Source of the DNA: Actinomycetes bacterium
GTDB taxonomy: Bacteria; Actinomycetota; Acidimicrobiia; Acidimicrobiales; RAAP-2
NCBI GenBank assembly: GCA_021845725.1
Contig: JAJZVL010000011.1
Span: forward strand, 1-57,950
Direction: 5' to 3'
DNA length: 57,950 nt
Under the pieces are notes generated by a model. The model was not told the DNA's origin, ran no database searches, and saw only the letters and a program-made list of their open reading frames with translations. Position numbers and translations under genes: made by a program. Positions within the stretch are counted from its first letter, which is position 1; each line of letters begins with the position of its first letter. Positions 50,535-51,853 of the stretch are shown here, in pieces.

Positions 50535-51307
50535 TCGCGCTCGAGCCCTGGTTGCGAGAGCGGCGCAGCGCGGGGCGCAAGCTTCTCGTGCCCTACCTCA
50601 TGGGAGGGCTGGGCGAGGACTGGGTCGAGGCGCTGCAGGCGGTGGCCGACGCAGGGGCCGACGCCGTCGAGGTCGGGATCCCCTTCTCCGACCCGATGAT
50701 GGACGGGCCGGTGATCCAGCAGGCTGGCGTGCACGCGCTCGATCGCGGTGCGACGCCGACGAGGATCGTCGACGCTCTCGCTTCAGAAGAGCTCGGCATC
50801 CCTGTCGCGGTGATGACCTACTACAACATCGTCTTCCGCACCGGGCACCGGCGGATGGCCCAGTCCCTGCGGGCCGCGGGGATCGGCGCCGCGATCGTTC
50901 CGGATCTCCCTCTCGAAGAGCTCGGGCCGTGGGCCGCGGAGGCCGACGCCGCCGAGGTCGCCACGGTGCTCCTGGTGGCGCCGTCGACTCCCGAGCCGCG
51001 GGTCGCGCAGATCTGCGCGCGCTCGCGCGGGTTCGTCTACGCCGTCGCTCGAATGGGCGTCACGGGAGAGCGCGAGTCGCTCGGCAACGAGACCACCGAC
51101 GTCGTGCGTCGGATCCGCGAGGTGACCGACGCTCCGGTGTGCGTCGGCGTCGGCGTGTCGACGCCCGCCCAGGCGCGAGCGGTGTGCGAGGTCGCCGACG
51201 GCGTCGTCGTCGGCTCCGCGCTGGTCCGGCGACTGCTCGAGGGTGGCGGACCGGACGCGGCGGGGGAGTTCGTCGGCCAGCTCCGGGCTGCGCTCGACGC
51301 GGGCTGA
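50531..51307 (+). CDS. trpA: Tryptophan synthase alpha chain
   Basis: 258 residues. Partner of TrpB, releases indole from indole-glycerol phosphate. [18 protein letters not shown] contains the catalytic Glu and Asp, [37 protein letters not shown] and [14 protein letters not shown]. The stop codon lies in the first copy of a 27-bp direct repeat. Confidence 0.95.
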
Positions 51308-51340
51308 CGGCTGGGGCTGCGCTCGACGCGGGCTGACGGC
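51285..51340. repeat. 27-bp direct repeat over the trpA stop codon
   Basis: GGGCTGCGCTCGACGCGGGC plus TGACGGC occurs at 51285-51311 and again, identical, at 51314-51340. The first copy encodes the last trpA residues and its TGA; the second lies in the gap before the peroxiredoxin. Confidence 0.95.
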
Positions 51341-51375: not shown

Positions 51376-51381
51376 TAGGAT
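51376..51381 (+). promoter_or_regulatory. Leaderless -10 box (TAGGAT) of the selenoperoxiredoxin
   Basis: TAGGAT ends 7 bases before ATG 51389. Another in-frame ATG (51380) overlaps the box and would not be transcribed. Confidence 0.55.
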
Positions 51382-51388
51382 GGCGGCC

Positions 51389-51853
51389 ATGCTCGCACCT
51401 GGAACGGCCGCTCCAGAGCTCACCCTCCCCGACCAAGACGGCACTGAGGTGTGCCTCGCCGACGAGCGCGGTCACTGGGTCGTGCTGTGGTGGTACCCGA
51501 AGGCAGCGACGCCTGGCTGAACGATCCAGGGCAGGGGCCTGCGTGACAGGTCCGAAGAGCTCCGGGAAGCCGGCGCAGTGGTGCTGGGCGCGTCATTCGA
51601 CACGCCCGAGGAGAACAAGGCCTTCTGCGACGCGGAGGGCTTCCCCTTCCGGCTGCTCTCGGACACCGACCGCGAGGTGGGTCGGCGCTACGAGGTGGTC
51701 CGGGAACCGGGCGAGGAGTACGCCGACTACGCGAAGCGGATCGCCTACCTCATCGACCCTTCGGGGGTGATCCGGCGCTCCTACGACGTGACCGACGTCG
51801 ATGGGTTCGCCGCGATGGTGCTCGCCGACCTCGCCGAGCTGGAGCACGCGTAA
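51389..51853 (+). CDS. bcp: Bcp-type peroxiredoxin, predicted selenoprotein (UGA = Sec44)
   Basis: 154 residues when the in-frame TGA at 51518-51520 is read as selenocysteine. The frame before it (LPDQDGTEVCLAD, VVLWWYPKAATPG) and after it (TIQGRGLRDRSEEL, GAVVLGASFDTPEEN, FPFRLLSDTDREVGRRYEV) is one continuous AhpC/TSA-fold protein. The TGA falls exactly on the peroxidatic Cys of the motif Y-P-x-x-x-T-P-G-C-T. The position of the usual resolving Cys five residues on is Arg49, leaving only Cys22 and Cys80, so it is probably a 1-Sec enzyme reducing peroxides with an external thiol. A SECIS-like hairpin follows at 51535-51553. A nonsense pseudogene is the alternative, less likely given the exact position. 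Confidence 0.85.
51535..51553 (+). promoter_or_regulatory. Bacterial SECIS element (predicted)
   Basis: GGGCCTG (51535-51541) pairs with CAGGTCC (51547-51553), one G-U pair included, over the 5-base loop CGTGA. The loop starts 21 bases after the TGA and has G as its second base, meeting known bacterial SECIS rules. It lies inside the coding sequence, as required for SelB-dependent decoding. Confidence 0.7.

Follow-up and report, generated by a model that had tools for sequence, protein, structure and literature searches.

A peroxiredoxin gene with one TGA in its reading frame, at the codon of the catalytic cysteine, may encode a selenoprotein, may be a cysteine gene hit by a nonsense mutation or a sequencing error, or may belong to an organism that reads UGA as cysteine or tryptophan. 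Such a gene lies in the stretch of DNA analysed here (the window: 57,950 nucleotides from a genome of the order Acidimicrobiales), and the original prediction, made from the window sequence, had assigned its TGA to selenocysteine (Sec). Which of these readings is correct?

The gene and its product

Between the ATG at 51389 and the TAA at 51851-51853 the frame is open apart from a single TGA at 51518-51520, just as a lone in-frame TGA in an otherwise intact peroxiredoxin had been proposed. The features of the locus are as follows (U+n and U-n count residues from the Sec position):

51377-51380, plus strand: AGGA, which may serve as the ribosome binding site (8 bases 5' of the ATG), suggested by the sequence
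51389-51853, plus strand: predicted gene of a Sec-containing Bcp/PrxQ-type peroxiredoxin, 154 residues including U44, starting with MLAPG as in its relatives and ending with TAA
51452-51454, plus strand: TGC codon of Cys22 (U-22), the one cysteine of the protein besides Cys80; Cys is found at U-22 in 3 of 107 Sec orthologues
51518-51520, plus strand: TGA, almost certainly read as selenocysteine U44, at the peroxidatic position of the motif P-x3-T-x2-U (P37, T41, U44) according to the PDB alignment and the orthologues
51533-51535, plus strand: AGG, encoding Arg49, where PrxQ proteins usually have their resolving cysteine (U+5)
51535-51553, plus strand: hairpin of the bacterial SECIS kind, stem 51535-51541 with 51547-51553, loop CGTGA at 51542-51546
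51626-51628, plus strand: TGC codon of Cys80 (U+36), a possible alternative resolving residue, unique to the window protein among the 107 Sec orthologues

The read-through product matches the Pfam family AhpC-TSA with 4.3e-33 and 114.3 bits (cut-off 26), and the AhpC-TSA domain, the P-x3-T-x2-(C/U) motif and the conserved arginine are all present. The TGA lies in the context P37-K-A-A-T41-P-G-U44 and coincides with the cysteine in the TPGCT motif of Bcp proteins of solved structure, the very position that had been claimed for it. Across 20 sequences, T41, position 44 and R117 are invariant and P37 is conserved in at least 90%. The best solved relatives, identified by PDB sequence matches, are annotated as bacterioferritin comigratory protein; the top NCBIfam match is NF006960 (thioredoxin-dependent thiol peroxidase, Bcp) with 109.6 bits, under its cut-off of 140, and a search of PHROGs returned one family, of unknown function. 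Judging from the Pfam and PDB sequence matches, from which the fold is assigned, the window gene is to all appearances that of an intact Bcp/PrxQ-type peroxiredoxin.

The 3' end of the upstream open reading frame is duplicated immediately ahead of the peroxiredoxin gene, in a direct repeat (51285-51340) whose two copies, each 27 bases or longer, start at 51285 and 51314.

Distribution of the TGA form

Among 298 genomes of the order, the window's own included, 54 have an orthologue (class defined by E ≤ 1e-35) in the TGA form. Ten weaker matches among those listed were flagged for a TGA: eight were fetched, six being a Sec paralogue (L084-L089) and two Cys forms (L082, L083), and the other two (in genomes G158 and G021) were left out. 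A scan of named genomes found a TGA in 78 and a TGC in two of the best 80 of 199 loci; these 80 are titled Acidimicrobiia, Acidimicrobiales, Acidimicrobiaceae, Ilumatobacteraceae or Microthrix, and the rest of them unspecified Actinobacteria, Actinomycetes or Actinomycetota, with a few plain 'bacterium'. The 54-genome and the 80-locus sets overlap. Together they comprise 107 distinct Sec sequences, counted after 25 of 150 proteins with identical cores had been removed; the phylogenetic tree covers 125 proteins. Seven further TGA forms, from outside the order, came from 396 genomes drawn across the phylum. All seven have a stem of at least 6 bp behind the TGA, with the loop codon CGT in six and CGG in one; selA and selB exceed the cut-offs in every one of their genomes, and a tRNA-Sec was found in three and not found in the other four.

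This distribution bears on the simplest alternative, a nonsense mutation or sequencing error in the gene of a Cys peroxiredoxin. A single base would suffice for it, and the assembly is a draft of 150 contigs, but the codon concerned is TGA in all 54 genomes and 78 loci (overlapping sets), and the frame is intact on either side of it. The conserved TGA, in combination with the SECIS element described below, refutes this explanation for practical purposes, and we regard it as scarcely conceivable.

The neighbourhood with its putative trp genes (the upstream gene being labelled trpA), part of what the original prediction had considered notable, is not shared by the relatives: when flanks of up to 1.5 kb per side were compared for the 54 loci, the window locus was in none of the 25 neighbour groups listed. 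A conserved operon partner was sought and rejected, as the largest shared neighbour group covers 10 of the 54 loci and does not include the window locus.

A constrained hairpin behind the TGA

The hairpin of the window gene has a 7-bp stem and a 5-nt loop (-10.2 kcal/mol) with a G at loop position 2 that is followed by U; the stem starts 14 bases and the loop 21 bases after the TGA. Stem length, loop sequence, position of the G and both distances are exactly those of the original prediction, which had likened the hairpin to bacterial SECIS elements. The rules for such elements in the part of PMC13188914 used here are a loop of 3-9 nt, a stem of 4-16 bp, a G in the first two loop positions, a spacing of 16-37 nt and a minimum free energy of at most -7.5. 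Coded by hand from that part of the source, they accept the window hairpin, and the likeness holds to this extent. The four-rule test as coded here is passed by 84 of the 107 distinct Sec sequences.

Taken alone, the window hairpin is weak evidence for Sec. The window has a G+C content of 71%, and 67 of its 925 TGAs (both strands) pass a similar test (stem at least 7 bp, energy at most -7.5); the fold of 48 nt differs from shuffled sequences by a z of only -1.08, and 24 of 200 shuffles fold equally well. The hairpin as sufficient proof was therefore rejected.

It is the comparative evidence, not the single hairpin, that carries the case. When synonymous codons were redrawn, the window gene alone gave a value of 0.0135, and 35 of the 54 genes were singly below 0.05; a stem of at least 6 bp at the fixed place is found in 52 of the 54, with a mean of 6.9 bp against 2.6 bp with redrawn codons. 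For the 107 distinct Sec sequences the corresponding count is 102, the stem being shorter in five. The loop begins with CGTG in every one of the 107, and its arginine codon is always CGT, a codon used for 24 of the 329 arginines at other positions of 54 of the genes. Bases in the stem vary while pairing is kept: among the 105 sequences whose stem has at least 4 bp, pair 3 is C-G in 52, T-A in 40 and T-G in 13, and pair 4 is G-C in 56, C-G in 31, A-T in 16 and G-T and T-G in one each. Three registers of the stem occur, which differ in loop length (5, 6 or 7 nt), and the tree needs several compensating pair changes within one register. At the same place, the Cys homologues examined have pairing of at most 2 bp (9/9), as do two further Cys forms. 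Chance is excluded by the conservation across 54 of 298 genomes and by the constraint on codons.

Selenocysteine machinery

The original prediction implied selA, selB, selC and selD in the genome, and all of them were found, with SelB just under one cut-off. The tRNA-Sec, with anticodon TCA, is encoded on contig C106 (67.8 bits; cut-off 47), and selB, selD and selA are consecutive on C117. SelA (378.4 bits) and SelD (320.6 bits) exceed their curated cut-offs (TIGR00474 and TIGR00476, respectively); SelB reaches 236.9, just below the 242.25 of TIGR00475, and its SelB-wing_3 domain is above cut-off. Contamination of the bin was considered and set aside: compared by stretches, contigs C145, C117 and C106 are alike in composition, with tetranucleotide correlations (r) of 0.95-0.98, and give no sign of it.

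The presence of a tRNA that reads UGA would also suit decoding of this codon as Cys or Trp, whether through an altered code or through a suppressor tRNA. Against this, the tRNA in question is a tRNA-Sec over the Rfam cut-off, accompanied by selA, selB and selD, and the TGA genes have a constrained hairpin that is absent from the Cys homologues examined. Moreover, the upstream open reading frame ends at a TGA (51305-51307), and UGA is thus still a stop there, which counts against a changed code. We consider such a reading highly improbable.

Across the order, 52 of the 54 genomes with the TGA form have a tRNA-Sec (E ≤ 1e-9), compared with 124 of the 244 others (Fisher p = 1.4e-11, kinship being ignored). 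SelA is found in 50 of the 54, both tRNA-Sec and selA in 48, and at least one of the two in all 54. A tRNA-Sec was not found in two (G178, G119), and selA, as well as a SelB over the cut-off, was not found in four (G261, G242, G063, G197), a second search for tRNA-Sec and selA included; these exceptions are draft assemblies. Use of Sec looks common in the order, with selA over the cut-off in 175 of the 298 genomes.

Genomes G261 and G242 (loci L021 and L022) belong to one genus and have the TGA gene and a tRNA-Sec, with neither selA nor SelB over the cut-offs; in the stretches searched near their tRNA-Sec, there was no match to selA, selD or selB. Their completeness is given as 94 and 96%, and incompleteness explains the absence poorly; contigs may be missing or another route to Sec may exist.

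Among the 12 sampled genomes of the window's own family, only that of the window has a tRNA-Sec at E ≤ 1e-9. The 11 without it have smaller genomes, of 1.5-2.2 Mb, which suggests that the Sec trait was lost in them; one of these, G256, has a weak match to selA (1.5e-17).

Exchange between Sec and Cys

An exchange of U and C among the homologues, which had been named as a check of the Sec reading, is indeed seen: there are Cys forms both within the Sec clade and beside it. In the tree of 125 proteins, L152 (Acidimicrobiales), L162 (Ilumatobacteraceae) and L075 lie inside the Sec clade and none of them has a stem of more than 2 bp, which indicates that the stem was lost in these Cys forms. As they are nested in the Sec clade, Sec must, by parsimony, have changed to Cys at least twice. 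The genome of L075 keeps both tRNA-Sec and selA; in the genomes of the Cys forms beside the clade (L074, L077/L080) neither of the two was found. L076 (genome G071), on a long branch, has serine at the Sec position (EPGS); selA is present in its genome and tRNA-Sec was not found, and L076 may be a decayed or repurposed copy.

Presence of the machinery, the conserved TGA form, the CGT of the loop, the stem with its compensating pairs and the stemless Cys forms together lead us to conclude that the UGA at 51518 is almost certainly decoded as selenocysteine, in a selenoenzyme of the PrxQ/Bcp kind. A sequencing error, a pseudogene and a change of the code are all very unlikely.

A separate lineage of Sec-Bcp paralogues (L084-L089) occurs in six genomes of the order, all of which have tRNA-Sec and selA. 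These proteins have the motif TPGU, some with U-x4-C. Their hairpin has the loop CGTGA and an unbroken stem of 3 bp in five and 6 bp in one of the six; the stem seems to continue beyond a bulge. The window's own genome has, on contig C146 (L175), an ordinary Bcp paralogue with Cys-x4-Cys, and the Sec enzyme is therefore an addition, not a replacement.

The same genome has a candidate second selenoprotein on C106 beside the tRNA-Sec (L091:2528-4207, minus strand): a fusion of a YncE/NHL-like beta-propeller and a redoxin domain, the latter with the motif FASWUGPC and the TGA at codon 406. A further TGA at codon 560 is probably a real stop.

Proposed mechanism and the resolving residue

During translation, SelB-GTP with Sec-tRNA-Sec would bind the CGUGA hairpin 3' of the UGA and deliver Sec to position 44. 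The selenolate of U44, aided by T41 and the conserved R117, would then reduce peroxides and be converted to a selenenic acid. How the enzyme is regenerated depends on whether there is a second catalytic residue. Many PrxQ/Bcp members, not all, resolve through a cysteine located five positions C-terminal of the peroxidatic residue. In the window protein that place is taken by residue 49, an arginine, as originally read, and Cys at U+5 is absent from 106 of the 107 Sec orthologues and present in one. As translated, 71 of the 107 have no cysteine besides Sec, and 31 have Cys at U+19, where regeneration across subunits may be possible. Since most members of the family lack a second cysteine, they are probably regenerated by an outside thiol, which could be thioredoxin, or mycothiol with mycoredoxin. 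The route by mycothiol is possible, but the best match to MshC in the window's own genome has 427.6 bits, below the curated cut-off of 485.1, and the original description of the organism as mycothiol-making is plausible only.

The original prediction had also called the window protein a 1-Sec enzyme. This fits most of the family, given the 71 orthologues that have no other cysteine, and less readily the window protein itself, which has Cys80, aligned to a cysteine of related structures. A two-residue mechanism, with an internal selenenylsulfide between U44 and Cys80 as in PrxQ proteins that resolve from helix 3, would make it no 1-Sec enzyme: Cys80 aligns without gaps with Cys84 of 5iox and 5iiz, and U44 with their Cys48. 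We take these two structures to be Xanthomonas PrxQ, with Cys48 and Cys84 as the catalytic pair. However, Cys at U+36 is found in the window protein alone among the 107 orthologues, and its nearest relatives, L092 and L093, have alanine there. We consider the pairing of U44 with Cys80 possible and rather doubtful; that the window protein works as a 1-Sec enzyme is moderately probable, and the same statement for the family as a whole deserves more confidence.

A tentative extension, which we would not expect to hold in full, is that the Acidimicrobiia clade is a one-selenol PrxQ subfamily in which Sec replaced the two-cysteine chemistry, the resolving cysteine was lost and a small thiol (e.g. 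mycothiol) resolves the enzyme, with Cys and even Ser forms arising after loss of Sec. If true, the enzyme of this clade would work like a bacterial counterpart of the selenium glutathione peroxidase.

Comparison with known selenoproteins and peroxiredoxins

Taken together, the sequences describe what appears to be a conserved Sec peroxiredoxin branch in little-studied actinobacteria, in which the usual second catalytic cysteine is mostly lost. A full-text search of open-licence papers returned no paper titled on Acidimicrobiia selenoproteins among the matches listed, and the string 'Acidimicrob' is absent from the portions of PMC13188914 and PMC12013277 used here. One study noted SelA and SelB in bins of sponge symbionts from various phyla (PMC5649159, in the section used here), and one of its bins, Sva0996 bin134, has the peroxiredoxin gene (L146). 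A conserved selenoprotein is thereby documented in a class known chiefly from metagenome assemblies, and gene finders that treat TGA as a stop would break the gene in genomes that have it. The natural Sec, Cys and Ser replicates, in a PrxQ that mostly has no resolving cysteine, make it directly testable what Sec buys a peroxidase.

The best PDB matches of the window protein are the Bcp structures 5iox, 5iiz and 3gkk (7.7e-23 to 8.2e-23), all three presumably from Xanthomonas, and their peroxidatic residue is Cys instead of Sec. PrxU (NF040737), another peroxiredoxin family, which we take to be that of the selenocysteine enzyme from Eubacterium acidaminophilum, does not include the window protein, whose score of 43.4 bits is below the cut-off of 270. 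The same applies to the thiol peroxidase Prx-SUH (NF045827; listed in the part of PMC13188914 used here), a selenoprotein peroxiredoxin for which the window protein has 30.4 bits against 298.

A Bcp form as such, the other point that the original prediction had thought notable, is already known. In the passages used here, a review (PMC9312934) lists the prokaryotic selenoprotein family 'Peroxiredoxin (Prx), COG1225 (Bcp), TxxU', for which it cites the Sec enzyme of Eubacterium acidaminophilum, the Sargasso Sea study (PMC1088965) reports 43 sequences under COG1225, and Symbiobacterium, at the time counted among the Actinobacteria, appears in a listing with a Sec peroxiredoxin (PMC1794560). As Bcp-type Sec peroxiredoxins are thus in reviews, the gene represents a new broad branch of a known type. 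It shares with the COG1225 family the peroxidatic Sec, the T-x2-U motif and a bacterial SECIS element behind it; the parts of PMC9312934 and PMC1088965 used here name neither Acidimicrobiia nor a resolving residue, whereas the clade described here lacks the cysteine at U+5 in 106 of 107 members.

PrxQ of Corynebacterium glutamicum also comes from an actinobacterium, a species that makes mycothiol, and has its peroxidatic motif in common with the family described here (PMC5811025, in the sections used here). According to the same sections, it is a thioredoxin-dependent enzyme with the pair Cys49/Cys54, and its C54S variant loses substantially all activity; in contrast, the family described here has Sec and does without that second cysteine.
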